From: Flavonifractor sp. An10
Lineage (GTDB): Bacteria > Bacillota > Clostridia > Oscillospirales > Oscillospiraceae
Direction: 5' to 3'
Assembly (NCBI RefSeq): GCF_002161215.1
Contig: NZ_NFMB01000002.1
Location: 372,001-436,000, forward strand
Length of the DNA stretch: 64,000 bases
Position 1 is the first letter of the stretch. Every line of letters begins with the position of its first letter. Of the stretch, positions 32,196 through 64,000 are shown piece by piece. The translations under genes and the position numbers were made by a program. The notes below the pieces were generated by a model that saw only the letters and a program-made list of their open reading frames with translations, ran no database searches and was not told the origin of the DNA.

Positions 32196-33074
32196 TTACC
32201 GCTGACCAGCAGCAAATTCACCCATATTGATGTCCAGCACCCCTCTGGGCGGCTGGATCAGGGCGTCCTCATACTGGCACTTCCACTGGAGCTCCCGGCT
32301 CATCTGTCCATTCTCCACACCATCTACGGTTTCCCCATCCTGAATGGGGTTGTCATTGGCCAGAATATAGGACGCCACATTATAGGCGTGGTTTACCACC
32401 CAGTTGGGGTCCATGTCGTGGAAGTGATACTGGAGATCTGGCAAAAACAGGGTGCTCATGCCCACCGTGTCGATGAGCATATCCTCAGTGCCCTCGATGT
32501 TGAAGAAGCGAACATTGACGCCAAAGCGGATGAACCGATCCGGGCCTTCAATCTGATGGGAGCGCACATCCTCCGCCAGAAACAGCTTGCCGCAGTTCTG
32601 GAAATAGAACGCCTCACAGGTGGGATACAGTTCCGCCAGAGCATCCAAAAAGTCGGCATCCAGGTTGGCCCGCTCCAGCGCCGGAAGCGCTGCTGCCAGC
32701 ATATCGGTGGCCAACACCTGATACCGGCACTCCCGGAAGATCCGCTCCCGGTCCTCCTGGCAGTCCCACATCTGGCTCATCAGGAAGGCGTCAAAGCCTT
32801 TGCCCTTGAACTTGTCGCATTTCATCACCATCAGCTGCACCGGGCATTTGCCGTCCTGAAATTCCGCGATATGATCCAGGGCGGCAAAGCCGGCCATCTT
32901 TTTATCACGGCAGAAACACTCTACGGCGCCGATGTGCTTTTCCATCACAGCGGTCATTTCATCCTTGTCTGGCATATCCACCGGCTCTTTGAATAGCATC
33001 TGAATGAGATAGGGGCCGCCGGGCTGTGGGCCTTTTTTGTCATCCAGGTTTTGCTGGAACACTTTATTGCTCAT
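32196..33074 (-). CDS. DUF4261 protein
   Basis: 292 residues. The C-terminal half, NWVVNHAYNVASYILANDNPIQDGETVDG, then QWKCQYEDALIQPPRGVLDINMG, is the hallmark of DUF4261, a family placed among immunity-like domains of polymorphic toxin systems. A divergent DUF4261 copy forms part of the giant protein at 41996. GGAGGAAATCAA precedes the ATG. It is the distal large gene of the array. Molecular activity unknown. Confidence 0.75.
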   Translation of the reverse strand: MSNKVFQQNLDDKKGPQPGGPYLIQMLFKEPVDMPDKDEMTAVMEKHIGAVECFCRDKKMAGFAALDHIAEFQDGKCPVQLMVMKCDKFKGKGFDAFLMSQMWDCQEDRERIFRECRYQVLATDMLAAALPALERANLDADFLDALAELYPTCEAFYFQNCGKLFLAEDVRSHQIEGPDRFIRFGVNVRFFNIEGTEDMLIDTVGMSTLFLPDLQYHFHDMDPNWVVNHAYNVASYILANDNPIQDGETVDGVENGQMSRELQWKCQYEDALIQPPRGVLDINMGEFAAGQR

Positions 33075-33206
33075 TTGATTTCCTCCTGTTTTTTATGAAC
33101 TTACGGTTGCTGCATAGCGCCAGTGCCACTCATCCCAGAAGGCAAGATGCGTCTTCTTTCTAAAGCTCATATTTTGCGTTAATGCTTTATTTCGTAATGC
33201 GGCAAT

Positions 33207-33377
33207 TCACTTTCTGTCAGGCAAAAATGCCATTACAGCACCTACAATGCCAATGATTGAAAAAATCAAAGACCATCTAAAAGATAGGTCAAAAAAAGCT
33301 GCATTGCCGTACCCTAACATCAACATGATAGAAACTAATATAAGTGCTATTCCTTGTAGTTGCTTTTTCATAGACAT
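33207..33377 (-). CDS. Small two-helix membrane protein
   Basis: 56 residues from ATG 33377 (GGGAGGTAAA). Two hydrophobic segments, GIALILVSIMLMLGYG and WSLIFSIIGIVGAVMAFL, with a short polar hairpin between; C-terminus PDRK. A membrane-embedded immunity role is conceivable (antidote to pore-forming toxins) but that is inference. Confidence 0.65.
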   Translation of the reverse strand: MSMKKQLQGIALILVSIMLMLGYGNAAFFDLSFRWSLIFSIIGIVGAVMAFLPDRK

Positions 33378-33394
33378 TTTACCTCCCGATGATT

Positions 33395-34174
33395 TTAATA
33401 ATCCAGTAAAATGGGCACCCACTGTTCCTCAGCAAACCGCATGGCCCGCCAGAACATGGAGAAGGCAAACTTGGCCAGGGATTGGGTGTCATACTGGGTG
33501 TGTTCCGGGATGTCCGCCTTGCTATACTGTCCATCTGCGTCTATGGTTCCGTCTACCGGGTATCCTTCCGTATCCGCCCAATCAAGGATGGTATCCTCAT
33601 CGGCCTGCCACGCCAGCTGGTTCAGCTTCTCCAGCTCCTTCCGCAGTCCGCCCAGGGTGGCGATCATCGCCTGATCATCGGTGGGCAGAGGCGCCTGAAA
33701 GAAGAAGGGGTCCGCCAGAGGCAACCACCAGGTAGCCCCATGGAACAGGGACCACACCCGTTCCTCGTCCGATGCAAGGCGGGCGACCAGAGGATGCTCC
33801 CCGAAGTTCCAGTCCTTCTCCACGGTGGATGGCACCGGCTCATCGTATGTATGGCAGGCGGCCACCAGAAGCATAGCGCCGAAGGCATCCCAATCCGGCT
33901 TGTCGGTGTAATAGGGCTTCTCATTATCTTCCGGCCAGGGGGTGTAGGGGGGCTGGCCCGGTTGAGAAATGGCGCTCAAGATCTGATCCCGCCAGTTCTC
34001 CACTGCAGCCTGGACCTCAGCTGGGGACATTTCTTCCTCGTTATCAGCAGCTTCTCCATCCGGCGTGATTTTTTGAAAGCCCCATCCATTTTCCTCCGCC
34101 CACTGCTGAACAACAGTTTTCCAGTTGTGAGAATAGTACCGGGTCAGTGTTCCGGCGTAGATGTCAAGTCCCAT
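33395..34174 (-). CDS. Immunity-array protein with conserved MGLDIYAGTLTRYY start
   Basis: 259 residues. The N-terminus MGLDIYAGTLTRYYSHNWKT recurs in uncharacterised proteins of immunity loci. Rich in aromatic and acidic residues, no catalytic motif seen; cytosolic. AAAAGGAGGCATCACT precedes the ATG. The preceding gene ends 25 bp upstream. Function unknown; immunity role inferred from context. Confidence 0.7.
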   Translation of the reverse strand: MGLDIYAGTLTRYYSHNWKTVVQQWAEENGWGFQKITPDGEAADNEEEMSPAEVQAAVENWRDQILSAISQPGQPPYTPWPEDNEKPYYTDKPDWDAFGAMLLVAACHTYDEPVPSTVEKDWNFGEHPLVARLASDEERVWSLFHGATWWLPLADPFFFQAPLPTDDQAMIATLGGLRKELEKLNQLAWQADEDTILDWADTEGYPVDGTIDADGQYSKADIPEHTQYDTQSLAKFAFSMFWRAMRFAEEQWVPILLDY

Positions 34175-34198
34175 AGTGATGCCTCCTTTTCCGCTTGG

Positions 34199-35140
34199 TC
34201 AAAGCTGTTCCAGGGTACAGTCGTGCCCGGAATGGTCCGTATCCAAAATGATTTCCACAATGGTGTCCATAGTCTCTTTCCCGAGATTACGGACGCTTTT
34301 TTCATAGGCCAACCACTGGATGTGGATGGGTTGTCCATACTCATGCCGCCCGAAACCGCCCCGGAGAATATCATTGAAAGCATTCAGGTTCCGACCGATC
34401 TTCCGGTCCAAACCGAATGTAAATACCCGCTCCACTTCGTCATAAAACCCGGCCATGTTAGAAAAGCGGCGGCCGTCGATGGTGAACTTCTGCCGCTGTG
34501 GTTGGTCTGCTGTAAACACCCGGTCGATCTGCTCCAGATTATACTCCAAGATCCAGCCATGAAATTGATGGTAAAGCGGCAAAAGCAGTTCTCTGGAACT
34601 GCCCAGCACATCCAGCCCCCGGTCATCGTACAGGTGGTAGAGGAACGGTCCAGGCCCTGTCAGATAGACGCTGGACACAAAGCCGCTCCAGCCTCCGATA
34701 TCTCCCAGAATGATCTCCTGCAAAAGTTGCTCCGGCTGAAAGGTAATCCCGCTGAGATCCCAGTAAAACTGCACTTGTGCATGGGTATCCCCATCTTCGT
34801 CCATCTCTATGGCCGGAAGTTGCTCATTGGGAACCGGGAGTCCCATTCGCTGCCGGATAACGGTCAGCAGGGACTCGGCAGGTTCTTCAACGGGATACCC
34901 GTCGATCCGCAGAAGGTCCGGCACCTCCGGAAGTGCCCGATAGATCGCGGCGGCCCGGTTCAGCGCCCCCTGAACATAGGCGGGGTTGGTTCTCAATTTC
35001 GCCGCACTCCTGTCCAGATAGATTGGTTCCTCCCCACCGATCTCAAACCGAATGCCTACCGGCGCATGGTAGAACAGAGGGTGTTCCAGCTGCTCCATGC
35101 CAAGGTCAGTAATTGTTTTCTGAAATTTTTCTGCCAGCAT
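34199..35140 (-). CDS. DUF3885-like / barstar fusion
   Basis: 313 residues. Residues about 20-190 resemble DUF3885 (GIRFEIGG-EPIYLD, LPEVPDLLRIDGYP). From about 215 the sequence is barstar-like: FTIDGRRFSNMAGFYDEVERVF, IGRNLNAFNDILRGGF, HIQWLAYEKSVRNLG. Barstar-type domains block RNase toxins by binding their active site. A fusion of two immunity domains in one chain fits a multi-toxin antidote. Confidence 0.78.
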   Translation of the reverse strand: MLAEKFQKTITDLGMEQLEHPLFYHAPVGIRFEIGGEEPIYLDRSAAKLRTNPAYVQGALNRAAAIYRALPEVPDLLRIDGYPVEEPAESLLTVIRQRMGLPVPNEQLPAIEMDEDGDTHAQVQFYWDLSGITFQPEQLLQEIILGDIGGWSGFVSSVYLTGPGPFLYHLYDDRGLDVLGSSRELLLPLYHQFHGWILEYNLEQIDRVFTADQPQRQKFTIDGRRFSNMAGFYDEVERVFTFGLDRKIGRNLNAFNDILRGGFGRHEYGQPIHIQWLAYEKSVRNLGKETMDTIVEIILDTDHSGHDCTLEQL

Positions 35141-35149: not shown

Positions 35150-36358
35150 TCAATCCTCATCCCCGGCCTTAAAGTTGTAGATGGGGCGGATGATTCTCCT
35201 CACCTCCGCCGTGGGACCGATATTGTCCAGAATATCCTGCATCCCCTTGTAGGCCATGGGACACTCATCCAGGGTGGCGTTGCTCACCGAGGTGGTGTAG
35301 ATTTCCGCCATCTGCTTTTTGAACTCGGACACCGTGAAGGACTGCTTGGCGTCCGCCCGACTCATTAGGCGGCCGGCACCGTGGGGAGCGGAGCAGTTCC
35401 AGTCCTCGTTGCCCTTGCCCACACAGAGCAGGCTCCCGTCCCGCATATTGATGGGGATGAGCAACTGCTCGCCCTCCTTGGCGGACACAGCCCCTTTCCG
35501 CAGGATCATAGCATCGGTGTCGATATAGTTGTGGATGGTGGTGAATTGCTCCTCCACATGGAGCTTCATGCCTTTGACGATCTCGTCCATCATAGCTTGC
35601 CGGTTGAGCATGGCGAAGTGCTGGACGATCTTCATGTCGTGGATATACTGCTCAAACAGTTCCCCGGACACATAGGCCAGGGCTTTAGGGATACTGGTCT
35701 GTTTGAGGTTTTTCAGCTTCTTCAGTTCTTTCTGGATTTCCTTCTCCCGGCCCTCTGCCTTCATCTGAGCCACCAGCGCCTGCAGGGAGGCATCGTCGGT
35801 GCGGTTGAGCACCTTGTAGCCCGCCTCCTGATAGTAGGCGGCCACCTCTACGCCCAGATGACGGCTGCCGGAGTGAACCACGATGTAGAGATTCCCTTCA
35901 TCGTCCTTGTCCACCTCAATGAAATGGTTCCCGCCACCCAGGGTGCCGATGCTCTTTTCTGCCCGGAGCAGGTCCACATGGCGGGCACAGCACAGTTCGC
36001 TCAGGTCGATCTCATCGAGATAGCGGTGGGCCTTATCCCGTATGGAGAAGCCGGAGGGGATCTTCTCATAGATCAACTTGTCCAGTTTCTGAAGCTCCAG
36101 CCGTCCCTCCCGGATGCGGGTGGTCTCCATGCCGCACCCAATGTCCACACCCACCAGATTGGGTACCACCCTATCGGTGATGGTCATCGTCGTGCCGATG
36201 GTGCAGCCTGCCCCGGCGTGGATGTCGGGCATGAGCCGGATACGGCTGCCGGCCGCGAATTCCTGATTGCACAGTTCCTGAACCTGTGCGATGGAGGCGC
36301 TGTCCACCACATCGGTGAAAATCTTGGCCTCGTTGTATTTTCCTTTGATTTCGATCAT
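35150..36358 (-). CDS. rtcB: RtcB-family RNA ligase
   Basis: 402 residues from ATG 36358 (GAGGAAACC). RtcB landmarks: MPDIHAGAGCTIGTTM, NLVGVDIGCGM (metal-binding Cys), GTLGGGNHFIEV, VVHSGSRHLG and SAPHGAGRLMSR. RtcB joins 2',3'-cyclic phosphate (or 3'-phosphate) to 5'-OH ends with GTP and Mn2+, the ends that RNase toxins leave. It starts 36 bp from the preceding array gene and lies within the immunity operon, so repair of toxin-cut tRNA or rRNA is the likely task (inference). Confidence 0.93.
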   Translation of the reverse strand: MIEIKGKYNEAKIFTDVVDSASIAQVQELCNQEFAAGSRIRLMPDIHAGAGCTIGTTMTITDRVVPNLVGVDIGCGMETTRIREGRLELQKLDKLIYEKIPSGFSIRDKAHRYLDEIDLSELCCARHVDLLRAEKSIGTLGGGNHFIEVDKDDEGNLYIVVHSGSRHLGVEVAAYYQEAGYKVLNRTDDASLQALVAQMKAEGREKEIQKELKKLKNLKQTSIPKALAYVSGELFEQYIHDMKIVQHFAMLNRQAMMDEIVKGMKLHVEEQFTTIHNYIDTDAMILRKGAVSAKEGEQLLIPINMRDGSLLCVGKGNEDWNCSAPHGAGRLMSRADAKQSFTVSEFKKQMAEIYTTSVSNATLDECPMAYKGMQDILDNIGPTAEVRRIIRPIYNFKAGDED

Positions 36359-36393
36359 GGTTTCCTCGCAATATTCTATGGGGCATGGCCCCG

Positions 36394-36753
36394 TCAAGTC
36401 ATTTCATACAGCAGGGCTGTATTGCCCTGCACCAGTTCCAGATGGGAGCGCAGCGTTTCAAGTCCGCTTTGCACCGCCTCGGTGGGCAGATCCCAGTCTG
36501 GGGCAATTTCAGCGGACAACTCCGGGAGGTCCTGCTCCCGCAAAGCTGCCAGCACATTAGACGCCAGCTCTCCCTCCAGCAGAGCGCAGTCCAGGGTGTC
36601 CTCCGTCTGGGGAGCAGGAAAACGGACATCCAGATCCAGCTCGCTCTCACACCAGTCCCAGATGGCCATATAGACCGCGCCGGAGCAGTCGCCGTTGGAC
36701 AGTTCCTGCCGCTGGCCGTCTTTGAGCAGATAAAAGGATGCGATCTGTGACAT
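36394..36753 (-). CDS. Unrecognised acidic array protein
   Basis: 119 residues, acidic: SFYLLKDGQRQELSNGD near the N-terminus, LDLDVRFPAP in the middle. ATAGGAGGAATTACC precedes the ATG. Small acidic proteins in such loci often mimic nucleic acid to block nucleases; only composition supports that here. Confidence 0.6.
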   Translation of the reverse strand: MSQIASFYLLKDGQRQELSNGDCSGAVYMAIWDWCESELDLDVRFPAPQTEDTLDCALLEGELASNVLAALREQDLPELSAEIAPDWDLPTEAVQSGLETLRSHLELVQGNTALLYEMT

Positions 36754-36764: not shown

Positions 36765-37286
36765 CTATATGTTATTCGCTTCCATCAGCCCTTCTGCCTG
36801 CATCCGGATCACATAGAAAGCCCGCACCCAGTCCAGCTCCGGCTCCATGGATTCCTCCAGAGCCAGCAGGCGGCGCTTTCCCAGCCTGCGGTCCAAAAGG
36901 GCAAAGATGCGGACAAGGGGATTCTCGCTGACGAGGCTTTTCTCGATGCTCTGGTTGTCAAAGATACCAAACGCCTCATAGAACACCTTTTGGTCAAAGG
37001 TGCCCTGCTCCAGCGCAAAGGCATGAGCCTGGTTGATGGCCTCTTTTGCGGAGTCGCAATCTTTCAGCGTTGTGGACCGCAGGTGATGAAATTTCGTCCA
37101 CACATTCTCAAAATAGATGTAGTAGTTGCTCCGCAGTACTTCCACACCGTCCATGCGAATGGCTGCCCGGCCCTCATGGTCAGCGCTTTTGCTGTAACTG
37201 GTGGCAAAATACTGGATGTGGCCCCGGAGCGCCGGGCACAGGTAGTCATTCTCCAGTTTGTTCCGGATTCCGCTCCAGGTTGACAT
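36765..37286 (-). CDS. SF0329-like immunity-array protein
   Basis: 173 residues from ATG 37286. The start STWSGIRNKLENDYLCPALRGHIQYFATSYSKSADHEGRAAIRMDG resembles the SF0329 family, small proteins repeatedly found in immunity loci. Function unknown. 12 bp from the following gene. Confidence 0.6.
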   Translation of the reverse strand: MSTWSGIRNKLENDYLCPALRGHIQYFATSYSKSADHEGRAAIRMDGVEVLRSNYYIYFENVWTKFHHLRSTTLKDCDSAKEAINQAHAFALEQGTFDQKVFYEAFGIFDNQSIEKSLVSENPLVRIFALLDRRLGKRRLLALEESMEPELDWVRAFYVIRMQAEGLMEANNI

Positions 37287-37307
37287 AGTGGTCACTTCCT
37301 TATCATT

Positions 37308-37742
37308 TCAGTTACTTTGATCGATACAGACACTCAGTTGTTTTTCGTAGGGGGCAATGGTTTTAGAAAAGAAGGAGATGTCGTCGCTGGACGCCCCGGT
37401 AATATAGAGCTCTGTGCCGTAATGCTCACTGTAAAAATGCATGTTTTTCCCTTTTATAAAGATGGAAAAATACTTTGTCATTTTGCGAAATTCCCCGTTG
37501 TCCGCAGGTGCTTCGGTCAGCAGTTCCGTCAGCAATGCGTCCGTGACCGTTCCTTTTACAGAAACTTCAAGCCCATCTTCCGAGGGGGTTCCATATCGGG
37601 AGGCCTGCTGGATTTCCAGGACTTCTTCTTTCCAGCATCGGATTTCCAATTCATCACCAATACAGACAAACCGACCAACAAGTTTTTTCCACCAGTCCGA
37701 TGAAATTGAGTCGTCTATTACCTGAAGACGGATGGTTCCCAT
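37308..37742 (-). CDS. Unrecognised array protein
   Basis: 144 residues from ATG 37742 (CGGAGGTGTGTT). Beta-rich: MGTIRLQVIDDSIS, LEVSVKGTVTDALL, NMHFYSEHYGTELYITG. No family recognised. Confidence 0.6.
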   Translation of the reverse strand: MGTIRLQVIDDSISSDWWKKLVGRFVCIGDELEIRCWKEEVLEIQQASRYGTPSEDGLEVSVKGTVTDALLTELLTEAPADNGEFRKMTKYFSIFIKGKNMHFYSEHYGTELYITGASSDDISFFSKTIAPYEKQLSVCIDQSN

Positions 37743-37850
37743 AACACACCTCCGAACAATGAAACTTTCACTCTTTATAGAGACTGGCTTTCTTTCCGAT
37801 ACAGACCGGATTGCAGCAGCTCCATCGACACCCGAATGTTTCCGCCCCAC

Positions 37851-38420
37851 TTATTCGGCTCTGTGGTGTTGCTGCTCTGCGAGATATGCCCGGAAGCATT
37901 CGACAAACTCCCGATTCCGCTTTGGGATATCGAATCCCTTCCGATGGGGAAAGAACCCCTCCCGTTCTACATCGTCCAGCAGCTTCGGCAAGTCGGAAAA
38001 CCGGGCGAAGAATGGTAGAGCATAGTCCTGGATCTGCTCAGAAATCTCCTGGATGGAGCGTTCCCGCTCCAGCAGAGTAGATACCTCATAGCGGGGGAAG
38101 TCATCATACCGGCGGGTCAGCCGGGCGATGGAGGTGCCCACGATACCGTCATAGGTCTCCTCCGTCCCTTCCTGCTCACTGCGCCACTGGGCGATTATCG
38201 GAGAGCCCACATGGAAGGTAGCGGTAAAGGTGGTGGAGCCAAAGCGGATGGAGGGAGAAAAATCAAAGGAGAACACAAAGATGCCGTCTTTTTTGTAGAT
38301 GTCATTTTTGCTCTTGCGGTATTTGTAACCCAGCGGGATCAAGGGCTCCGCGATCCGCTCACAGGTATAGACGAAAATCTCGCGGGGCTTGGTTCCCTTG
38401 GGGAAATCCTTCTTCTCCAT
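37851..38420 (-). CDS. Unrecognised array protein (DUF4304-like layout)
   Basis: 189 residues from ATG 38420. GYKYRKSKNDIYKKDGIFVFSFDFSPS and the ATFHVGSPIIAQWR strand suggest a DUF4304-like fold, a family known beside other immunity genes. Helical C-terminus. The match is weak and by eye. Confidence 0.55.
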   Translation of the reverse strand: MEKKDFPKGTKPREIFVYTCERIAEPLIPLGYKYRKSKNDIYKKDGIFVFSFDFSPSIRFGSTTFTATFHVGSPIIAQWRSEQEGTEETYDGIVGTSIARLTRRYDDFPRYEVSTLLERERSIQEISEQIQDYALPFFARFSDLPKLLDDVEREGFFPHRKGFDIPKRNREFVECFRAYLAEQQHHRAE

Positions 38421-38474
38421 GTTGCCACCTTCCTTCACTCATTTACCGTTCCACTCTCAACCGCCGCGTTATTT

Positions 38475-39224
38475 TTATTGCTCATTGAGATACCTCGCCA
38501 ATTTCTTCTCCAGCAGTTCTGTCATATCATTGCAGAGGCGCTTTACCTTGTCCTGCTCATGGGCGTAGTACCAGATGGTTTCCTCTCCAGGGCGGAGCAG
38601 GAGCTGGTCGCCGTCCGCTTCTTTCCAGAACTCGCCCAGCACACAATACCGCTCTCCATGGATGGTCAGATCAAACATCCCGGCAAGGGAAAGGATCACG
38701 CCTGTGGACGCCTGGATGCCTGCGGTCAGCAGGAAGAACTCCCGCACCTGGGATGGGAGCGTGAAGTCCAGCACGCTTTCTTGATTCCCGATTTGCTCCT
38801 CCGTGGCGGCGGGCTTGATCTCGTCAGAGGGGTCCAGCACCTTTGCCAACGCCTTGGAGAACTTGGGGTATCGGCCAAACAACTCCGGGTTGTTGGTCTT
38901 GAATTCCTTTTGCTTTTCCCGCTGCACTCGCTCCTGCTCCTTGCAGAAAACATCCAGCTCGGCCAGATACCGCTCCTGGTAGAGATTGCTGGCCTCAAAT
39001 GCTGTGCCGCTCTTTTCCAGAATGGCGATGGCTCCCTTTTGGCTACCAAACACCGGGACCCACTGAAAACCGTGTCGGCAGGGCTTCAGTTTCAGAAATT
39101 CACCCCGACTCAGCAGGGCTTCCAGTTCCGGCTCATGTTCGCCCCACCAGTTCTGCCAGGTTTCGGGAGTTTCCCGCCCCTCGACCAAGTCCAGGAGCTT
39201 TGCTGTCAATGATTCTTTGTTCAT
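38475..39224 (-). CDS. SMI1/KNR4-like (SUKH) immunity protein
   Basis: 249 residues from ATG 39224. The N-terminal half, with FGSQKGAIAILEKSGTAFEA and a charged helix QERVQREKQKEF, precedes a SUKH-like end: LPSQVREFFLLTAGIQASTG, YCVLGEFWKEADGDQLLL, EETIWYYAHEQDKV. SUKH domains neutralise many nuclease toxins by direct binding. The fused first half is not recognised. Confidence 0.65.
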   Translation of the reverse strand: MNKESLTAKLLDLVEGRETPETWQNWWGEHEPELEALLSRGEFLKLKPCRHGFQWVPVFGSQKGAIAILEKSGTAFEASNLYQERYLAELDVFCKEQERVQREKQKEFKTNNPELFGRYPKFSKALAKVLDPSDEIKPAATEEQIGNQESVLDFTLPSQVREFFLLTAGIQASTGVILSLAGMFDLTIHGERYCVLGEFWKEADGDQLLLRPGEETIWYYAHEQDKVKRLCNDMTELLEKKLARYLNEQ

Positions 39225-39249
39225 AGGTGTCCACGCTCTTTCTCCGCCA

Positions 39250-41088: not shown

Positions 41089-41116
41089 CGCTTGTATCCC
41101 ACCTTTTGAAAACTCC

Positions 41117-41980: not shown

Positions 41981-41995
41981 GGTCACAATCTCCCA

Positions 41996-47599: not shown

Positions 47600-47610
47600 G
47601 ACCATCCTCC

Positions 47611-48459: not shown

Positions 48460-48472
48460 GTCGACGCCTCCT

Positions 48473-52376: not shown

Positions 52377-52378
52377 TG

Positions 52379-54355: not shown

Positions 54356-54378
54356 GTAATCCCTCGCTTTCCGGCACA

Positions 54379-56304: not shown

Positions 56305-56335
56305 GCGACCGCACATTCCTTTCTCTACGACTGAA

Positions 56336-56840: not shown

Positions 56841-58322
56841 TCAAAAATCATGAAGCTCATCGAACTTCGCAATCAGGGCATCTTTCTGGAGTATATCGCC
56901 TGGCAGGGCATCCAGGATACCCCGCAGGGCCATATAGATTTCATCCCGCTCCTCAGTTTCGATAAAGCCCATCTTGTTGAAGGTCTGAGTGTAGGCTGCC
57001 ACCGCATCCAGTGCCTGGGCCTGAGCGTCCTCGCCCGGCTCAGTGGCCAGCTTCATCAGCTGGGAACGGGTCTTGCGGTATTGATTGGCTGCCTTTTTCG
57101 CAGCAGAAGCAGGGATATGCTCCGCACCGTCCCAGCCTCGGAAGGGATTGTCCAGGTTTTGCGCCAGCCACTCCGGTTTCCGGGGCTTGGTGATCCGCAG
57201 ATCCATTCCCGGCTTGCTTTTCCAGAGCTGTTTTGCCGCTTTTGCCGCCGTCTCCGGCAGGCTGGTCATCCAGAACCAGCGAAGTTCCGGCATCTGCGCC
57301 GGGGTGGGGATGTCCTCCGCCCCGAAACCAAACAGGTCGAAGGTGGAGAGATTCGTCAATTCTCGGAACCCTCTCACGGCGGAGAAGTTCCCCAGGTTTC
57401 CCGGCGCACCCCAGAGCCGCAGCTCCTTCAGATGGGGATGGACAGCATCCATTCCAGTCAGCTCAAAGTCCTTCAGCTCGATGCCATGCAGCCCCCATAG
57501 GTTCGGCAGTTCCGTGTGCGGGCGGTATTCCCCGATAAATTGGAGGGTCAATCCGCTACCATCTTCGGGGGCATGGATGGCACAGGCGTCCGGCCCCTTG
57601 TTCTGGAACAGGAGCAGCTCCGTTCCCTCACACAGCCACAGTTCCTCCAGCCCGGTCATGTCCAGCATCAGCTTTCTGATGCTGGTGCCCCGCAGATCAA
57701 GTGTCCTCTGACCGTGGTTCAGCAAAGTCACTTCATCAACAAAGGGGGTTTCCCGCAAAAACTCCAGCAGATCCGGGTGCCACCGCTCGCAGATGAGTTC
57801 GGAGAGGCAGGGTAGCGCCTTTAGTTCCAGCGCCGAATCGAATGGTTCGTACTGGTCCGTCACCCGATGGCTGCTGACCTTCACCGGGATACCGCCGATC
57901 TCCGTTTGCTCGTCACTGTCCATGGCCTCCTTGAAGGCCCGCCGCCGTTCCTCCGGAATGGCCTGCCACCGGATCTGGAGATACACATCATAGCCGTCAC
58001 TCCAGCCTCCGTAGGAGCGGCAGGGCTGGTCGGTGAAGGGCGGAAGTGTACCCACCAGTTTATACTGGGGCGGGACCTCCAACGGCACCCGCAGCAGGTG
58101 GAGGTCGCGGGACCAGTACATGAAGTCCTTGTAGAGCGGGCGGAGATGGGGCAGTTCCTCCGCAGTCAGAGGGGCGTCGCCCACCCAATCCAGAGAGAGG
58201 ACCACCGCCCAAGATTCTTCGCTCACCGTGTCCGGCGGCGCAATATAGGCCACCTGGCAGGCGGTGTAGCGTTTCAGATATTGGTTGTAGACTGTATAGA
58301 CTTCTCCGGCGGTGGCTTTCAT
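56841..58322 (-). CDS. LRR-type immunity-array protein
   Basis: 493 residues. The middle (about 170-370) has leucine-rich-repeat-like runs such as LLNHGQRTLDLRGTSIRKLMLDMTGLEELWLCEG and HLKELRLWGAPGNLGNF. The C-terminal 110 residues are helical (AAKKAANQYRKTRSQLMKL ... EERDEIYMALRGILDAL). LRR proteins bind partners over a broad face, so a toxin-binding role is plausible. Confidence 0.65.
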   Translation of the reverse strand: MKATAGEVYTVYNQYLKRYTACQVAYIAPPDTVSEESWAVVLSLDWVGDAPLTAEELPHLRPLYKDFMYWSRDLHLLRVPLEVPPQYKLVGTLPPFTDQPCRSYGGWSDGYDVYLQIRWQAIPEERRRAFKEAMDSDEQTEIGGIPVKVSSHRVTDQYEPFDSALELKALPCLSELICERWHPDLLEFLRETPFVDEVTLLNHGQRTLDLRGTSIRKLMLDMTGLEELWLCEGTELLLFQNKGPDACAIHAPEDGSGLTLQFIGEYRPHTELPNLWGLHGIELKDFELTGMDAVHPHLKELRLWGAPGNLGNFSAVRGFRELTNLSTFDLFGFGAEDIPTPAQMPELRWFWMTSLPETAAKAAKQLWKSKPGMDLRITKPRKPEWLAQNLDNPFRGWDGAEHIPASAAKKAANQYRKTRSQLMKLATEPGEDAQAQALDAVAAYTQTFNKMGFIETEERDEIYMALRGILDALPGDILQKDALIAKFDELHDF

Positions 58323-58337: not shown

Positions 58338-58574
58338 TCATCCGTTCTTTTCCAGATAGAATCCCCATACACAGTTGGAGAACTCCCCGGCGGCAAAGCG
58401 GTGGATCTGCCCGTCAATCTCCACCTGCCAGACCTCGAAGGTATGGTCTTGGTGATAGATCGGGTCTTTGACTTTTACTCGCTTGCCGGTGGTTTGCCAG
58501 TCGTAGTCAAAGATGTTCACACCAAACAATTTACATTGACCGTCTGGGCTAAAAGTTTCATATTCCCAAGCCAT
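58338..58574 (-). CDS. Small unrecognised array protein
   Basis: 78 residues from ATG 58574. WEYETFSPDGQCKLFGVNIFDYDW, WQVEIDGQIHRFAAGEFSNCVWGFYLEKNG: an all-beta pattern. 8 bp from the gene upstream. Confidence 0.6.
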   Translation of the reverse strand: MAWEYETFSPDGQCKLFGVNIFDYDWQTTGKRVKVKDPIYHQDHTFEVWQVEIDGQIHRFAAGEFSNCVWGFYLEKNG

Positions 58575-58582
58575 GTGATGCC

Positions 58583-59542
58583 TCACAAACCCGTGCGCTG
58601 CCAGCCGTCCAGCCGCTCCTGCACCCCGTCGATCATCCAGTTATCGCCCACACGCTTCATGAGGAAACGGCGGTCAAAGCCGGTGTTTTTCTCTCTGGTG
58701 TAGATGTAGAGTTTGTTTTTGGTGATCTGCTCCGCGTCAAGGAATTCTTCCCCGTTGTAGGTGCCCTGGGCACTGTATGAGAGGCCCAGAGGACGGTAGC
58801 CCGGACGGGGCTTTTCGCTCACATACTTTTCCCAGATCGCCAGCAGGCGGGGCACAGCCTCGGCATCTTCAAACCCGGCATGCTCCATGTACTGCTCCCA
58901 CTGTGTCATCTCGGCAAAGAAAGCGGACAGCACCTTGCGGCATTCTTCCGCCGCCTGCTCATCCAGCTGGACGGGCTTTTTGGCCTTTTCCCGCTGGAGC
59001 TGGGAGAAGTGTTCCATCTGCTCCTTGGTGAATTGCACATGGGCCACCGGCTCGATGCGGTTGTTACCGGCGATGGCCAGCAGGCCCTCATAGGTAACGG
59101 CGGAATGGTCGATCTGGATGTGGGAGAGCTTGGGGATGGAGGCCGCCTGGAGCAGACCGGCATCATCCAGCCCGGTGCGGTTGAGAGTGATAAGATCCAG
59201 CTTGCAGCCTTGCAGGGCGGACAGACCGCTGCCGTGGATGGCGGCATTGCCGTCCAGCAGGAGATAGCGCAGCTTGGGCATAGCGGAAAAAACAGGGAAA
59301 CAGGCGTCGGTGAGCGCACCGTCCTCCACGCCGAAGTTGGCCATGCTTTTATGGCCGGCAAAAGGGGAGAGTAGGTCGTCGGTCACCGGATAGCCTTTTA
59401 CATGAAAGCCCACCAGAGTGTAACCGGCCAGCTGCTCCATGATCTCTGCGGTCAGTTCCGGGACTTCAAACTGCTTTTCTCCGTCTAAGGTCAGGACACC
59501 ACTTGCCCAGTCCGCTGTCCGCGCCCGTTTTGGCCATTCCAT
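58583..59542 (-). CDS. LRR / NTF2-fold immunity fusion
   Basis: 319 residues. Residues about 60-170 contain LRR-like units (MPKLRYLLLDGNAAIHGSGLSALQGCKLDLITLNRTGLDDAGL). From about 190 the sequence is NTF2-like: YMEHAGFEDAEAVPRLLAIWEKY, then IYTREKNTGFDRRFLMKRVGDNWMIDGVQERLDGW. NTF2-fold proteins include antidotes of Rhs toxins. The fusion joins two binding folds. GGAGGTAAACAGCG precedes the ATG. Confidence 0.7.
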   Translation of the reverse strand: MEWPKRARTADWASGVLTLDGEKQFEVPELTAEIMEQLAGYTLVGFHVKGYPVTDDLLSPFAGHKSMANFGVEDGALTDACFPVFSAMPKLRYLLLDGNAAIHGSGLSALQGCKLDLITLNRTGLDDAGLLQAASIPKLSHIQIDHSAVTYEGLLAIAGNNRIEPVAHVQFTKEQMEHFSQLQREKAKKPVQLDEQAAEECRKVLSAFFAEMTQWEQYMEHAGFEDAEAVPRLLAIWEKYVSEKPRPGYRPLGLSYSAQGTYNGEEFLDAEQITKNKLYIYTREKNTGFDRRFLMKRVGDNWMIDGVQERLDGWQRTGL

Positions 59543-59556: not shown

Positions 59557-60510
59557 TTACACCTGCTCCTTGTAGCTGGCTTCAATGTCGATGAAGCGCA
59601 CATACACGGCACAGATTTCGCCCTTGGCGTCATAGCCGAAGTAGACGGGATAGTAACCGTAACCGTCACCAGAGCCGGAGGCGAAGATGGGCAGATTGGA
59701 GTCTGTGTCCGGCACCGTCCAGTTGAGCCAGTCGCCGTAGTCCCCCTGATATTTGGGGTGGGCTTTGGCGTTTTCCTTGAGAAGATCGCAGAACAGGTCG
59801 TTGTAGGGGTCGATGTCCGGGTCTTCTTCCAGACGCTTGGCCCAGTAGGTCTTGAAGGCCGCCTGGGTCTGGATGTCCGCAACGCAGCCCATCCCAGTGT
59901 CTACGCCAAAGCCAAAAAACTCGTCCTCGCTCGGCTCCTCAACCAGATCCTCTTGGCCGGTCATGCCCAGCTCATAGCGGACAGGCTTTTCCCGGCTGAC
60001 CTCCACCTTGACGCAGGCGTAGCAGTCGCCGTATTTCTCACTGGGCACCACGCAGATCTTCACCGGATAAGTCCCGGCGGGGATCGTCTGGATAAAGGGC
60101 GGCGTGTCCTCCAGCTCCACCAGAGGATCGCAGGCGAAAATCGTTCCTGTTGGGAAATTGACGGCGCCAATGTCCAGCACATCCACACCCATATTCCCAA
60201 TCACTTTTTCTGTAAAATAGTCGTCCAGGTCCGTTTTGCAGGCCAGTTTGTCCTTTATGGATTCGTATTTGTTCAGCCATTCGGTAGTCGGCATAATGGC
60301 TTTCTCCTGTTTGTCGTGTTTCTTAATGTACTCGCTCTTAGAGCCGTCCCAGTAGCAGTTCACACACCGGCCATTCTGAAAATGGTGGGGACAATTTGGG
60401 TAGCCATAGAGGACATGAGCGCATTCCGGGCACAGTCCCATCATCTGTGAGGAGCCTTTGAAAAACAGGCTGCCGCACTCATCACAGACGGCCAGTTCAT
60501 TTTCTGCCAT
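59557..60510 (-). CDS. Zinc-ribbon plus DUF4241 protein
   Basis: 317 residues from ATG 60510 (a GTG at 60519 is possible). The first 60 have CDECGSLFF, CPECA and CPHH...CVNCYW. From about 120, PTGTIFACDPLVELEDTPPF, IPAGTYPVKICVV, FFGFGVDTGMGCVADI and ASGSGDGYGYYPVYFGYDAKG match DUF4241, a widespread immunity-associated family. Confidence 0.75.
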   Translation of the reverse strand: MAENELAVCDECGSLFFKGSSQMMGLCPECAHVLYGYPNCPHHFQNGRCVNCYWDGSKSEYIKKHDKQEKAIMPTTEWLNKYESIKDKLACKTDLDDYFTEKVIGNMGVDVLDIGAVNFPTGTIFACDPLVELEDTPPFIQTIPAGTYPVKICVVPSEKYGDCYACVKVEVSREKPVRYELGMTGQEDLVEEPSEDEFFGFGVDTGMGCVADIQTQAAFKTYWAKRLEEDPDIDPYNDLFCDLLKENAKAHPKYQGDYGDWLNWTVPDTDSNLPIFASGSGDGYGYYPVYFGYDAKGEICAVYVRFIDIEASYKEQV

Positions 60511-60515
60511 GAGGT

Positions 60516-60842
60516 TCACCAGTCCCTTTCCCGGATGGCCTCCTCAATATCAATGGGAATGCCGAACCACTCCAGAATGTAGGCCACAGTGACTCCAATA
60601 CAATCCCGGGCCACCGTTTCGATCTCGCTGTCGTTCTCGTCAAACTCCTCCTGGAGATCATTGATGCCGCAGACCGCCTCATCCAGCGTTTCCTGTATTA
60701 CTTCAGTGTCGGTTTCGCCGCTCTCAAGCAGGTCGATGACCTTCTGGAGTTCGTCCTTTACCTTATCCACCAGAAAAGTAGGATAGTAATCATCCTGATA
60801 CATCTCGTCCAGCAGTTTGTAGTTGGGATCAAATGCTTTCAT
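60516..60842 (-). CDS. DUF5713-like immunity protein
   Basis: 108 residues from ATG 60842 (AAAGGAGCAATCC). EEFDENDSEIETVARDCIGVTVAYILEWFG and IEEAIRERDW match DUF5713, a small helical protein family of immunity loci. Confidence 0.75.
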   Translation of the reverse strand: MKAFDPNYKLLDEMYQDDYYPTFLVDKVKDELQKVIDLLESGETDTEVIQETLDEAVCGINDLQEEFDENDSEIETVARDCIGVTVAYILEWFGIPIDIEEAIRERDW

Positions 60843-60858
60843 AGGGATTGCTCCTTTC

Positions 60859-61404
60859 TCATTCAAACATCAGGCCGTATGATTCGGTCAGGCTGCCATC
60901 ATCCTCATGGAACATACACTGATACAGAGGCTGGCGCTGTGTTGCTTTGCGGAATCGCTCCAGAACCGGAGCCAGCGGCTCATCGGTAGGGACGCCGAGA
61001 GCATCAGCTACCCGTCGCCAGCTGTCCATATCCATATCTTCCAAGTTGATGTTGCGCTGCCTCTGCCCGTATTCCTCCAGTGTTTTGGAGTCCGCATACT
61101 CCTTTGCGTCACAGCAGTCGTGCCAGCAGATACAGCTCACAATCAGTGAAAAAAGGTCATCCATGCTCTCAGCCAGACGGCCTGCCTCACCTTCGCTGCT
61201 GTAATAGCCGATGGAGCCATCTTCCAACAGGTGGTATTCTCCGCCGGAGCCATCTCTCGCAAAAGCCATACCGGGCAGTGTGAAGGTTGCTCGACCATCC
61301 GCCTCATCCCTCGGGGACAACTCATCCAGCAGGAAGAAGTCAAAAAGGGAATCAAACTCCTCTGCCAAATCAGGGTTTTCATGCAGTGCCTTCAAATAAT
61401 CCAT
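60859..61404 (-). CDS. SUKH-like immunity protein
   Basis: 181 residues. FARDGSGGEYHLLEDGSIGYYSSEGEAGRLAESMDDLFSLIVSCICWHDC is the SMI1/KNR4-like middle. DALGVPTDEPLAPVLERF near the C-terminus is helical. Such proteins bind nuclease and deaminase toxins. Confidence 0.65.
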   Translation of the reverse strand: MDYLKALHENPDLAEEFDSLFDFFLLDELSPRDEADGRATFTLPGMAFARDGSGGEYHLLEDGSIGYYSSEGEAGRLAESMDDLFSLIVSCICWHDCCDAKEYADSKTLEEYGQRQRNINLEDMDMDSWRRVADALGVPTDEPLAPVLERFRKATQRQPLYQCMFHEDDGSLTESYGLMFE

Positions 61405-61420
61405 AGCCGTTTTCCTCCGT

Positions 61421-62425
61421 CTACTGTTCTGGTTTTAACTCATGCAGCCTTTCCAGCCACAGCGGTTCTTCAATCATCTCATCGTTTTGGTAAAAATGTT
61501 CCTTGTCACGGGCCAGATGATCGGCAAGCGGAGGTGCGTCCAGCGGGGTGCATACCGTAAAACTGTCCCGATCCGCCTCCTTAATCTCCCGGTTGAGGTA
61601 GTACACCCGCCTGGCATCGCGGGAATACCAGTGACCGAGCAATTCCCATGAGGGCAGATCCGCCTTGGGAAGCTGCTTACCGTAAGCATAGATTCGTTTC
61701 TCATCCCTGGCAAAATAGGTGTCGCCCAACGAGCGGAAAGAGGAAACTTCCGCGCCCTTGATGATCTTCACCTTGCCGTCTCCGTTGTGGAAGTAGACCT
61801 GCCGGCTGTCCTTTGCATATCCCTGTGGCGCGCCCGAATCGTTCTGGCCATTGTCCAACACCTGGAAGGTTGTCAGCTCTACATCTGGGATTCTCCCGCT
61901 GGTAGTGTAGACGGCTGTTTTGTCCATCGCGTAGGCATAGTTTAACACCCGAAACGATGCCGGGTCTGCTCCACGCAGGCGAATCCCGCCGAGAAAGCAG
62001 GCCGTAGAGGATTTGCCCCAGTAACGCCAGCAGCAGAAGTCTTTGGGAGAAACACCCTTCAACAAGCCGTTTTCATATAGGCCAGAGAAATATACGGCTC
62101 CATCCTGAAAGAAAAACTCATTGTCCACCGGCTCTATGTTTGTGATCGGCTGCAGCAGTTCTTCGTGATGATCTGTTATGCTCAGTTCGATTTCGTCGTC
62201 GCTATAAACTAAGTAGAGCCCATGAGGGGCCTTTCTATCGAAATGCAGTTCAATGTCATAATATTTGAGGATCAAAGGTTTCCCGTGGCTTCTCATGGTG
62301 GAAACGGCATCGGGATTCCCGAAGATTTCTATGACCTCATCCTGCGATATTCCGAATTTCAGCGGTGAAATGTCCCGCGGATTCTGCAATATTTGATTGC
62401 GCCAAATAGTAAAGTCCTGTTTCAT
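61421..62425 (-). CDS. DKNYY-repeat protein with extra N-terminal domain
   Basis: 334 residues. The C-terminal 190 repeat the DKNYY theme: YAKDSRQVYFHNGD, FARDEKRIYAYGKQLPKAD, YSRDARRVYYLNREIKEAD, LARDKEHFYQND. The first 120 (ISPLKFGISQDEVIEIFGNPDAV, LILKYYDIELHFD) form a separate alpha/beta domain. DKNYY proteins are probable immunity modules. Overlaps the next gene by 4 bp. Confidence 0.72.
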   Translation of the reverse strand: MKQDFTIWRNQILQNPRDISPLKFGISQDEVIEIFGNPDAVSTMRSHGKPLILKYYDIELHFDRKAPHGLYLVYSDDEIELSITDHHEELLQPITNIEPVDNEFFFQDGAVYFSGLYENGLLKGVSPKDFCCWRYWGKSSTACFLGGIRLRGADPASFRVLNYAYAMDKTAVYTTSGRIPDVELTTFQVLDNGQNDSGAPQGYAKDSRQVYFHNGDGKVKIIKGAEVSSFRSLGDTYFARDEKRIYAYGKQLPKADLPSWELLGHWYSRDARRVYYLNREIKEADRDSFTVCTPLDAPPLADHLARDKEHFYQNDEMIEEPLWLERLHELKPEQ

Positions 62426-62976
62426 AGTTTTCCGTCCAGTGCCTCCACAGTTTTCATGGCAGCGGAATCAAATTTGCACTGCCGCAGATCCCGTTCAATC
62501 AGGGCAAACACATCCGGGAAACACTCAATCTCATCCTGGTACTCATATTTCGCATACAGTTTCCCGTACTCGGAGATCCAGACCTCTGCCGGGTAGTAGT
62601 AGCCGATATGACCGATGGGCTGGCATTTTTCACCGGCAGCCTGTTCGATCTCTGCCAGTTCACAGCCGGACATATCCCGAAAATAGGCTTCTTCCAAATG
62701 GTTTTTGATTCCGTTGACCAGGTAAGGGAACAAAGCGAATTGGAAGTCAGCCGCCCAGTTCAGTTTTTTCTGCTCCAAGTACCACTCACAGCACAGGCCG
62801 AAATACTTGCGGTAAAACCGCTGGGTGGTCTTCATCATTGGGATGCCATGAGCGGCGTAATACTTCTCCGCAATGGAGATGTCCACCTTTCGCCCTTCCT
62901 GCCATCCGGCGTACTCCATCAGCTGCTTGACCTTACTTTTGAGATCGCCGGAGATGGAGATGCGTTCTTTGATCAT
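62422..62976 (-). CDS. SUKH-3 immunity protein
   Basis: 184 residues from ATG 62976 (GGAGGTAACCACC). AGWQEGRKVDISIAEKYYAAHGIP at the start and IGHIGYYYPAEVWISEYGKLYAKYEYQDEIECFPDVFALIERDL at the end fit SUKH-3 (GW-pgR ... G----l-is--G-vy). Overlaps the DKNYY gene by 4 bp. Confidence 0.72.
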   Translation of the reverse strand: MIKERISISGDLKSKVKQLMEYAGWQEGRKVDISIAEKYYAAHGIPMMKTTQRFYRKYFGLCCEWYLEQKKLNWAADFQFALFPYLVNGIKNHLEEAYFRDMSGCELAEIEQAAGEKCQPIGHIGYYYPAEVWISEYGKLYAKYEYQDEIECFPDVFALIERDLRQCKFDSAAMKTVEALDGKL

Positions 62977-63008
62977 GGTGGTTACCTCCATTACCAGATT
63001 TCAGATAT

Positions 63009-63446
63009 TTACAACTCTGCCACAAACTCATAGGAAACCGCAATGATGTTGTAAACATCATCGTATGTAAACAGCCGGTAGTGCCGATAGATGCCTTTGT
63101 CAAAGTCCTCCCGCACCGGCAGAGACTTCAGCCAGGTGCTGTCCTCAATTAAATCGAAGGAACTGCCATCTAGATACTCCGTCCCAGCCAGATTTTCATA
63201 GGTGTCCAATTCACAGGTAAAATAGGCCAGCACCTGCCGGAAGGTGAGTGTATAGGGAAACCAGTCTTTTTCGTCCCTGCGCTGGGAGATTAGATGGCCA
63301 TTGATGTCCCCCGTAAAGGTCAGATTGTTCAGAGCATCCTGTTTCACCTGATCCAGATAGATGCAGTCCCGTCCCTTCAAAACACCTAAGCAGGTATTAA
63401 CAGCAGTCGCTTTTTCCATAGGCAATTCTCTCGCATCAGCTTTCAT
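63009..63446 (-). CDS. Unrecognised array protein
   Basis: 145 residues, ATG 63446; a start at 63419 is equally likely. TFRQVLAYFTCELDTYENLAG, YRHYRLFTYDDVYNIIAVSYEFV. No family recognised. Overlaps the preceding gene by 11 bp. Confidence 0.6.
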   Translation of the reverse strand: MKADARELPMEKATAVNTCLGVLKGRDCIYLDQVKQDALNNLTFTGDINGHLISQRRDEKDWFPYTLTFRQVLAYFTCELDTYENLAGTEYLDGSSFDLIEDSTWLKSLPVREDFDKGIYRHYRLFTYDDVYNIIAVSYEFVAEL

Positions 63447-63942
63447 GGGTAATACAGAAAATCTCCTGGTTTAAGTCAAAGTAGATTACCATCAACTCGT
63501 CGGTGATCTCCGGGTTGAAGGACAGATCCATAATGAAAACTTGTTGATCCATCTCATCATCCACCAGACTGCCGAACCGCTTGAGCTTCAGAAAGTCCAC
63601 CATCTCGGCAAAGGACAGTTTGGATGGGTCGGTTCCCGGAAAAAGTTCCGCCGCAATATCCGGGCCTACATCGTCCCGGTGGAACTCCATGAAAAATGTC
63701 ACAACGCTATGGTAGCGGCTGTCCTCGTCCGCCAGCGCCGCTTTGATGGCGGCTTTGGCCTTCTCCGCCAATTTCTCCGCCTCATCCAGCATTTCTCCCA
63801 CCGCATCCATGGCAGCAGGATCGCCGGTCAGTTCTTCCTCTACATCGAAGAGAAAGGGCAGTCCCGATTCCTCGGGAAAGGTGAAGATCTCCTCGCCGGG
63901 CGTGTATTCAAAATCAATGCGTTTACAGTTCAGCTTCATCAT
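63436..63942 (-). CDS. DUF2004-like protein
   Basis: 168 residues. An acidic helix (MDAVGEMLDEAEKLAEKAKAAIKAALADE), then FFMEFHRDDVGPDI and DLSFNPEITDELMVIYFDLNQEIFCITHES, the typical DUF2004 ending. Family known in immunity loci; function unknown. Confidence 0.68.
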   Translation of the reverse strand: MMKLNCKRIDFEYTPGEEIFTFPEESGLPFLFDVEEELTGDPAAMDAVGEMLDEAEKLAEKAKAAIKAALADEDSRYHSVVTFFMEFHRDDVGPDIAAELFPGTDPSKLSFAEMVDFLKLKRFGSLVDDEMDQQVFIMDLSFNPEITDELMVIYFDLNQEIFCITHES

Positions 63943-63951
63943 ACTATCCCC

Positions 63952-64000
63952 TTACCCCTCAATGTTGGCAGCTTTGAGGCCCTTTTTCAGGGAGCCGCAG
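63952..64000 (-). CDS. C-terminal end of the next array gene
   Basis: Partial: the minus strand reads SLKKGLKAANIEG then TAA at 63954-63952, just before the ribosome-binding site of the DUF2004 gene. The array continues beyond the window. Product unknown. Confidence 0.55.
   Translation of the reverse strand, partial: CGSLKKGLKAANIEG

Follow-up and report, generated by a model that had tools for sequence, protein, structure and literature searches.

A large heterogeneous polyimmunity locus beside conjugation genes in Flavonifractor sp. An10, with recurrent relatives in gut Clostridia

Introduction

Heterogeneous polyimmunity loci, as described by Zhang et al. 2012 (PMC3482391), are tandem, co-oriented and closely spaced series of genes from unrelated immunity families, variable in content and without toxins. 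Orphan immunity gene arrays backed by functional tests are in print for Bacteroidales, where the rAID systems of gut bacteria form short co-oriented arrays that are thought to be mobile (PMC12247911). We describe a locus of the heterogeneous polyimmunity kind in Flavonifractor sp. An10 (genome of 3.88 Mb in 15 contigs), located in a stretch of 64,000 nucleotides of contig NZ_NFMB01000002.1 (positions 372,001 to 436,000, hereafter the window) and continuing into the 20 kb directly after it (L002). Labels of the form G002 and L107 are our own handles for genomes and loci. While the polyimmunity locus is an already known type, the unusual size, probable mobility, nearly fixed gene order, repair enzymes and leader RNA of this example are new, and no account of such arrays in Clostridia was found in the titles and abstract beginnings of the literature library that we searched. 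The locus is probably a heterogeneous polyimmunity operon on a conjugative element, protecting its carriers against the toxins of rivals.

Results

A single-strand array of about 49 genes

The array lies on the minus strand; its last gene is at position 32196, and it crosses the window end and reaches as far as about 73943 (L002:1-9943), where its first gene, g48, lies, a total of 41.7 kb. It holds 48 called genes, whose reading frames are all open, and one overlooked gene of 82 amino acids, hence about 49; the part from 32196 to 64000 accounts for 37 complete called genes, the overlooked gene and the end of g38. All genes with profile support between 32196 and the window end are on the minus strand. 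Neighbouring genes overlap at 20 of the 47 gaps and are separated by 50 nucleotides or less at 40 of them, which is the orientation and spacing of a heterogeneous polyimmunity locus. The initial annotation had described a tightly packed run in one direction at 32196-64000, which these figures bear out; its extent of over 31 kb and about 40 genes was too small, with the array continuing about 10 kb beyond 64000. The gene run is not a product of chance, because its genes recur in near-identical order in other species and are under purifying selection (see below).

Gene content and the search for toxins

Of the 48 called genes, 47 were scanned against Pfam, and g38 was named solely as a homologue of g46. 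Named immunity families were detected in seven genes (g03, g09, g12, g14, g24, g30 and g35), with unrelated families in tandem: SUKH-1, SUKH-3, Imm32, Imm51, Imm-NTF2 and Barstar, together with Imm68, Imm33 and SUFU in g14. These last three are the named immunity families among six above cut-off in the g14 protein, which also shows TPR below cut-off. A further 11 genes, including g38 by homology, belong to DUF/UPF-type families (DUF4261, SF0329, DUF4304, UPF0167, DUF6881, DUF4241, DUF5713, DKNYY, DUF2262/DUF7021 in g46 and g38, and DUF6138). The remaining matched genes encode RtcB, KptA/Tpt1 and NADAR (n = 3), a C_GCAxxG_C_C protein (n = 1) and ankyrin repeats (n = 1), and 25 of the 48 have no family above cut-off. 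Array proteins are mostly acidic, with an isoelectric point below 6 in 41 of 48 versus 10 of 26 proteins chosen by hand from the element and its flanks (one of the 26 is possibly no real gene); a crude hydrophobicity cut-off was exceeded by two of 48 and five of 26, respectively.

No toxin or secretion family was found above cut-off in the 47 scanned genes, nor any toxin family above cut-off in ten genes special to other arrays. LXG, WXG100 and RHS_repeat, the classes to which the genome-wide toxin searches were confined, had no match in the Flavonifractor genome. Beyond 64 kb, no toxin locus was recognised in a flank that was mostly named by eye: more array genes follow, and then a conjugation module. 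The central proposal of the initial annotation, a large polyimmunity array without a recognised partner toxin or visible secretion gene, is supported, the structural features of the loci of Zhang et al. being present and the three toxin searches empty. Its account of the contents needs narrowing. Immunity families are named in seven genes but not in "most", since 25 genes have no family and g14 is a multi-domain protein rather than a single domain, and RtcB, KptA and NADAR are enzymes of RNA repair or ADP-ribose removal instead of antidotes that bind toxins. For these three, one of the outcomes that the annotation itself named as refuting, profile matches to non-immunity families, did occur. 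The "antidote bank against rival bacteria" is thus supported in part, protection being a predicted role. The wider extent, the probable mobility, the near-fixed order, the leader RNA and the damage-reversing enzymes go beyond what the annotation noted.

The genes of the array within the window are as follows, from the last gene of the array backwards, with families from Pfam where so marked and presence given out of 12 arrays.

32196..33074, minus: g01, DUF4261 (Pfam), last gene of the array; 11/12 arrays
33395..34174, minus: g02, no Pfam family; 10/12 arrays
34199..35140, minus: g03, fusion of DUF3885 and Barstar (Pfam)
35150..36397, minus: RtcB RNA ligase; reading frame from TTG, an inner ATG being the likelier start
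36394..36753, minus: g05, no family
36765..37295, minus: g06, SF0329 family (Pfam); 11/12 arrays
37308..37850, minus: g07, no family; none found in the other 11 compared arrays
37851..38438, minus: g08, DUF4304 (Pfam)
38475..39359, minus: g09, SUKH-1 (SMI1/KNR4) (Pfam)
39250..39684, minus: g10, no family above cut-off
39701..40813, minus: g11, no family above cut-off
40810..41124, minus: g12, Imm32 (Pfam)
41117..41986, minus: g13, UPF0167 (Pfam); 11/12 arrays
41996..47614, minus: g14, polyimmunity protein of 1872 amino acids with Imm68, Imm33, DUF4261, SUFU, DUF7832 and DUF4253 (Pfam)
47611..48756, minus: g15, no family above cut-off (weak TPR)
48894..49463, minus: KptA/Tpt1 RNA 2'-phosphotransferase; 7/12 arrays
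49481..50029, minus: g17, no family
50047..51015, minus: g18, no Pfam family; 12/12 arrays
51012..51677, minus: g19, no family above cut-off
51687..52382, minus: g20, no family
52379..53329, minus: g21, no family
53351..53644, minus: g22, DUF6881 (Pfam)
53655..53918, minus: g23, no family
53915..54478, minus: g24, Imm51 (Pfam)
54379..54855, minus: g25, C_GCAxxG_C_C family (Pfam)
54825..55694, minus: NADAR family (Pfam); 10/12 arrays
55705..56418, minus: g27, zinc-ribbon-like, below cut-off
56336..56752, minus: g28, zinc-ribbon-like, below cut-off
56841..58322, minus: g29, no Pfam family; like leucine-rich repeats by eye
58338..58586, minus: overlooked small gene of 82 amino acids, recognised from copies in other arrays
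58583..59542, minus: g30, Imm-NTF2 (Pfam)
59557..60519, minus: g31, DUF4241 (Pfam)
60516..60866, minus: g32, DUF5713 (Pfam)
60859..61404, minus: g33, no family; 8/12 arrays
61421..62425, minus: g34, DKNYY (Pfam)
62422..62991, minus: g35, SUKH-3 (Pfam)
63009..63446, minus: g36, no family
63436..63942, minus: g37, no family
63952..64000, minus: g38, 3' end, homologue of the DUF2262 gene g46; extends past the window

Copies of the overlooked gene are 96–99% identical in three other arrays, and its family occurs in five of the 11. The g03 protein is shorter in several arrays, with about 214 amino acids and no Barstar part in G002, or about 100 amino acids. Among the genes without a Pfam family, g18 has a weak profile match to formylglycine-generating-enzyme-type chains, and profile comparison of g33 gave nothing convincing. 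A YoeB match in g34 is far below cut-off.

Gene order is nearly fixed and gene content varies

Eleven other arrays share 11–40 of the 48 genes with the window array, and only five of 4525 shared gene pairs are inverted, four of them in the distant G198 (the fragmentary or distant arrays G015, G014:C75, G127 and G112 were set aside in this count). Further loci found through NADAR were counted separately: in the 26 that hold three or more other array homologues, inversions affect 43 of 2501 pairs (30 of these in L107, L136 and L145), with none in 17 loci and one to four in six, and the matched genes lie on one strand throughout. Clustering the 12 arrays gave a pan-array of 93 clusters, 66 of them present in at least two arrays, with order conflicts in 22 of 1573 cluster pairs found in two or more arrays.

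The number and type of genes vary between relatives, as in heterogeneous polyimmunity loci. Clean absence from at least one array was seen at 15 of the 47 positions examined and replacement at 13 (g38/g46, g22/g24 and g18/g19 shared labels in this analysis through over-clustering). A homologue of at least part of g14 is present in 12/12 arrays, as a piece of only 280 amino acids in G002 and split in F. plautii. Presence counts are lower bounds and absences upper bounds, some stretches being incomplete (that of A. colihominis is without the array start).

Genes would be gained, lost or swapped slot by slot, most simply via recombination through conserved neighbours. The gene g43 is flanked by a 155-nucleotide direct duplication of the g44/g42 junction (a direct repeat of about 160 nucleotides at L002:4208-4367 and 5045-5204), which also occurs in Oscillibacter ER4, and the junction is single-copy in two examined arrays without g43; this duplication is likely the footprint of the integration of a circle by one crossover, or of unequal exchange. 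Rates of synonymous substitution (dS) jump between neighbours, with 0.32 for g48, 0.74 for g47 and 0.11 for g46 in the comparison with CCNA10, as would be expected of mosaics. Gene cassettes with shared recombination sites were ruled out, since many genes overlap and no 8-mer recurs at junctions above chance (the best at four of 47 junctions versus an average best of 4.04 at random positions, for 8-mers only). The array genes are under purifying selection: the median ratio of non-synonymous to synonymous rates (dN/dS) is 0.13–0.17 in seven comparisons of 24–40 shared genes, with single values up to 0.95 where dS is near zero.

Relatives occur across gut Clostridia

A NADAR profile scan of GTDB contigs returned at least 575 relatives, of which the best 80 were used, and 26 of these 80 loci carry at least three other array homologues in the stretch examined. 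Where NADAR is at least 79% identical (26 loci), 23 do so, the exceptions being L105, L111 and L112. Two genomes appear under more than one label (L096 = An306 = G015; L106 = F. plautii ATCC 29863 = G014). Carriers belong to the Oscillospiraceae and, in another order, the Lachnospiraceae (Lachnoclostridium sp. An196). From first to last gene, the array measures 37–42 kb in each of five genomes, against 26.6 kb for F. plautii. Database matches of a 25-kb array stretch comprised one phage record (3%) and one Subdoligranulum plasmid record (56% at 88% identity).

Array proteins of G199, G201, G202, G208 and G209 are mostly 80–98% identical to those of the window, and in the same genomes the best match to the window xpt product is 39–44%, compared with 80–88% for xpt in the nearer G200, G203 and G206. 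The contrast between array and xpt is suggestive only; with the taxonomic spread and the plasmid copy, we read it as a sign of horizontal transfer. The array would thus move among gut Clostridia, each copy being one selection from a common gene pool in a near-single order. Related polyimmunity fusions of about 1135–1484 amino acids also occur in G001, G002:C7, G005, G008 and G018, with no other window-array homologue in the stretches examined.

Conjugation genes and flanks

Past the array start, about 3 kb of other genes precede a conjugation module. The genes upstream include DUF1273-like, helix-turn-helix-like and TraG/VirD4 genes, named by eye except for TraG, the coupling protein, which is supported by a TrwB match (32 bits). 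A VirB4-type match lies about 13–14 kb upstream of the array start, and a CHC2-type protein and a relaxase upstream of the array were both named by eye, the relaxase having no PDB match. Relaxase, coupling protein and VirB4 are hence all found near the array, the first by eye. Homologues of the relaxase-CHC2-TraG set precede the array in Angelakisella massiliensis, Oscillibacter ER4, Pseudoflavonifractor gallinarum, CE91-St43 and Anaerotruncus colihominis, and an integrase-like frame does in F. plautii.

Beyond the last array gene, a WYL regulator is followed by a small gene and then by an IrrE-type peptidase.

30922..31884, minus: WYL-domain regulator, directly beyond the last array gene
29793..30464, minus: IrrE-type M78 peptidase, after the WYL gene

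A WYL homologue occupies the same place in eight of 11 other arrays (a fragment in CCNA10), and an IrrE homologue is clear in five, including the Subdoligranulum plasmid, and weak in a sixth. Elsewhere in the window, an Rfam pemK RNA motif (RF02913, 26325-26404, minus strand) scores above gathering near a second tyrosine integrase (24484-25755). The conjugation region also encodes a protein of 1734 amino acids with a signal-peptide-like start (L003:8060-13264; 92060-97264 of the extended window), perhaps a surface adhesin of the element.

RtcB, KptA and NADAR are optional, recurrent members

The three enzymes keep the blocks of their solved relatives, which we take to be catalytic: DIHxG, DIxCG, GNHF, HSGSR and HGAGR in RtcB, RH, GHS, HGT and HLS in KptA, and EQY and WGI in NADAR. 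Across 20 genomes of the genus, KptA is present in four, NADAR in three and RtcB above cut-off in one. The place of RtcB is after g05 in the window array, in that of CE91-St43 and in two of Anaerotruncus colihominis, and an Angelakisella mini-locus pairs g01 with RtcB. NADAR copies are 88–97% identical in other genera and one other family, and among the best 80 NADAR loci, KptA lies in the stretch in 10 and RtcB in three (L113, L115 and L117). All three are thus optional, recurrent members of the array and not hallmarks.

Work on Pseudomonas credits RtcB and NADAR with countering RNase toxins and toxins that ADP-ribosylate (PMC11888443). NADARs reverse ADP-ribosylation of guanosine in RNA, and PARG enzymes shield cells from an antibacterial ADP-ribosyltransferase (PMC11833690). 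Among the immunity families known to Zhang et al., one is enzymatic, an ADP-ribosylglycohydrolase (PMC3482391). In the array, RtcB, KptA and NADAR may undo the damage done by toxins that cut RNA or ADP-ribosylate nucleic acids, in which case RtcB would religate, KptA process 2'-phosphates and NADAR remove ADP-ribose.

Such enzymes also lie near one another in other loci. KptA and RtcB lie about 2 kb apart on opposite strands in L038 (G127:C85), with no other array homologues. NADAR lies within about 3 kb of KptA in L168 (Methanobrevibacter filiformis, an archaeon) and L144 (Oceanirhabdus, a distant Firmicute), a hint that the two are partners more widely. On the chromosome side of the window, adjacent frames at 3412-5029 (plus strand) resemble, by eye, genes for a macrodomain protein and for a protein of Sir2 type, which may be another pair for reversing ADP-ribosylation.

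A conserved leader RNA precedes the array

L002 about 9944-10195, minus: leader RNA, just before g48

About 260 nucleotides before g48 there is a promoter-like site that has an extended -10 (one in 2 kb versus 2.3 expected by chance), and the leader after it is conserved in arrays that begin with g48, with g47 or with a gene like g46. It forms two hairpins, a first one and a terminator-like one that has a T run, in which 95.6% of cells are paired across 20 aligned copies, and two-sided changes occur at seven of 21 pairs, against 1.7 in shuffles (0 of 500) and 1–4 with slid partners, a count favoured by the structure having been drawn from the same sequences. With slid partners, pairing falls to 30–50%. 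Hairpin 1 is 89.7% paired, one of its pairs being unformed in six of 18 sequences, and three of its pairs change together in Merdimmobilis hominis. The fold z-score of the window leader is -4.16. A terminator-like hairpin is hence conserved between the promoter-like site and the first gene, as in an attenuator.

A leader model finds one copy in the Flavonifractor genome and, under strict filters, eight matches in five of 149 genomes, one of them an antisense duplicate. Rfam gave no convincing match (best 20.5 bits, the gathering score being 126), no viral contig held an exact copy of a leader pattern of 26 bases, and the leader DNA had no match in phages. Nor did tblastn of the leader peptide match any plasmid; this search is insensitive, because the diverged leader of the Subdoligranulum plasmid escaped it. 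L107, an array relative with rearranged order, contains a leader-like match inside.

These features suggest that the leader is an attenuator of a wider kind, used by the array. Its terminator-like hairpin would attenuate transcription into the array until some signal frees it. Ribosome-mediated control is the leading but unproven option, and a LoaP-like factor that brings about processive antitermination is no more than a conjecture.

Weighing the interpretation

Several observations weigh against a mobile polyimmunity operon under leader control. The 25 genes without a family may hide a toxin or some other function. RtcB is found in three of 12 arrays, its slot being cleanly empty in four and otherwise filled in two, and none of 25 RtcB neighbourhoods outside the window's own array holds another window-array homologue (26 of 32 other RtcB genomes were examined, counting L038, and unrelated immunity families would escape this comparison); such homologues lie near KptA in one of eight cases and near NADAR in three of seven outside the own array. 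Conjugation genes were not recognised in the examined stretches beside the CCNA10, An196, F. plautii, G002 and G198 arrays, and no repeat of the tRNA-Ser end at 6447, the one site considered as a putative end of the element, turned up within the 144 kb searched. A paralogue may account for the low xpt identities, the second match in the Flavonifractor genome itself being 41%. Inverted pairs make up 16 of 28 in L107, nine of 15 in L145 and five of six in L136, and order is not kept in L107 and in distant Sporosarcina and Paenibacillus loci. The gene g45 may have lost its start here. As for the leader, RNAalifold alone predicts the terminator-like hairpin and not hairpin 1, a simple terminator scan did not list the leader hairpin, and sense copies precede non-array genes, namely an ABC-transporter operon (L208, G006) and a predicted membrane protein (L206, G014). 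The small open reading frame (ORF) through both hairpins is intact in seven of ten leaders and broken or different in three, and control by the leader peptide only was down-weighted on that count; a second set of 22 leader sequences adds more intact and broken ORFs, the terminator not being located in seven of the 22.

An anti-phage or plasmid-conflict island appears unlikely. Its role would be to shield the host from tRNA cleavage and ADP-ribosylation set off by phages, with the immunity-like domains as antitoxins or parts of phage defence. Phages are indeed known to counter RNA damage with KptA, NADAR and RNA ligases (PMC9503650), and a restriction-methylation-like cluster lies near the array. 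PADLOC matched NADAR (PDC-M42C) and the ankyrin gene (PDC-M72A), through models that we take to describe candidate systems; these are two of the ten array proteins scanned, and the other eight had no match. Moreover, most named families here, namely SUKH, Imm32, Imm33, Imm51, Imm68, SUFU, Barstar and NTF2, belong to polymorphic-toxin immunity, and PHROGs had few matches among the 37 array proteins inside the window (RtcB, KptA and NADAR, and weakly g18 and g27). The cluster mentioned, at 13605-21418 on the plus strand, encodes an N6/N4 DNA methylase, a ResIII helicase and an Mrr-type nuclease with a STAND-like NTPase part, and is a candidate restriction-type defence system in its own right. 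A phage tail module, which one-way genes and a gene for 1872 amino acids might bring to mind, was ruled out, PHROGs and Pfam finding no structural phage gene.

It is very improbable that the array is a dead reservoir, in which immunity genes have piled up in a mobile element and drift without present function. Some copies are damaged, with a stop in KptA of F. plautii and a possible RtcB remnant of 81 amino acids on the Subdoligranulum plasmid, and the g14 split in F. plautii and the doubtful start of g45 point the same way; the low median dN/dS, the open frames of all called genes and the conserved leader argue otherwise. We give as little credence to a large cognate set, whose targets would be toxins from the element itself or from another part of the genome. 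Conjugative elements may bring a toxin with them, and the genes without a family leave room for one, but the genome searches for the three toxin classes returned none and the scans of the arrays none above cut-off. A heterogeneous polyimmunity operon on a conjugative element hence remains the probable reading.

Discussion

On this polyimmunity reading, about 49 cytoplasmic, mostly acidic proteins would be made from a single long message, and many of them, as members of immunity families, would each bind and block one kind of toxin injected or secreted by a rival. More tentatively, the whole may be a conjugatively shared, inducible defence operon, whose covarying leader senses the state of translation or RNA damage in a cell under attack and releases transcription of some 40–50 slots of specific toxin inhibitors and general repair enzymes; the near-fixed slot order would then let arrays be renewed by homologous exchange through adjacent genes. 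We regard this as a rather doubtful extension.

The array offers a defined, recurrent counterpart in gut Clostridia, typically beside conjugation genes, to the orphan arrays of Bacteroidales. How immunity genes join arrays becomes testable, with the g43 duplication and the clean empty RtcB sites as direct footprints. The same holds for whether repair enzymes provide a broad immunity next to inhibitors of particular toxins, and for the signal that turns the array on. The 93 pan-array clusters are a list of unnamed immunity candidates.

The leader resembles the ribosome-mediated attenuators of BmrCD (PMC4191407) and msrD (PMC10314930) in its promoter-like site, T-run hairpin and, in most copies, small ORF, and differs from them in preceding an immunity array and in the broken ORF of some copies. 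RtcB and NADAR, which are targets of one regulatory system in Pseudomonas (PMC11888443), here stand within one immunity array. The rAID systems, described from Bacteroidales, have a tyrosine recombinase at the head, genes below 41% GC and a conserved intergenic motif (PMC12247911). In the array, which is from Clostridia, no recombinase was recognised upstream (mostly by eye), the GC fraction is 0.49–0.60 in windows of 1–2 kb rather than single genes, and no shared junction motif was found among 8-mers; on these three features, membership of the rAID systems was ruled out.

Our results are largely in agreement with the heterogeneous polyimmunity loci of Zhang et al. 2012 (PMC3482391). They differ, however, in size (19 immunity proteins in the worked example of that study, about 49 genes here), in a near-fixed order across bacterial families and orders, in a leader RNA and adjoining conjugation genes, and in the repair enzymes, RtcB, NADAR and RNA ligase being unmentioned in the text of that study examined. 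Polyimmunity proteins of up to ten domains are known from the same work, in which such a protein and an extended locus are perhaps not found together; in Flavonifractor sp. An10, g14 joins six families in one chain and lies inside such a locus.

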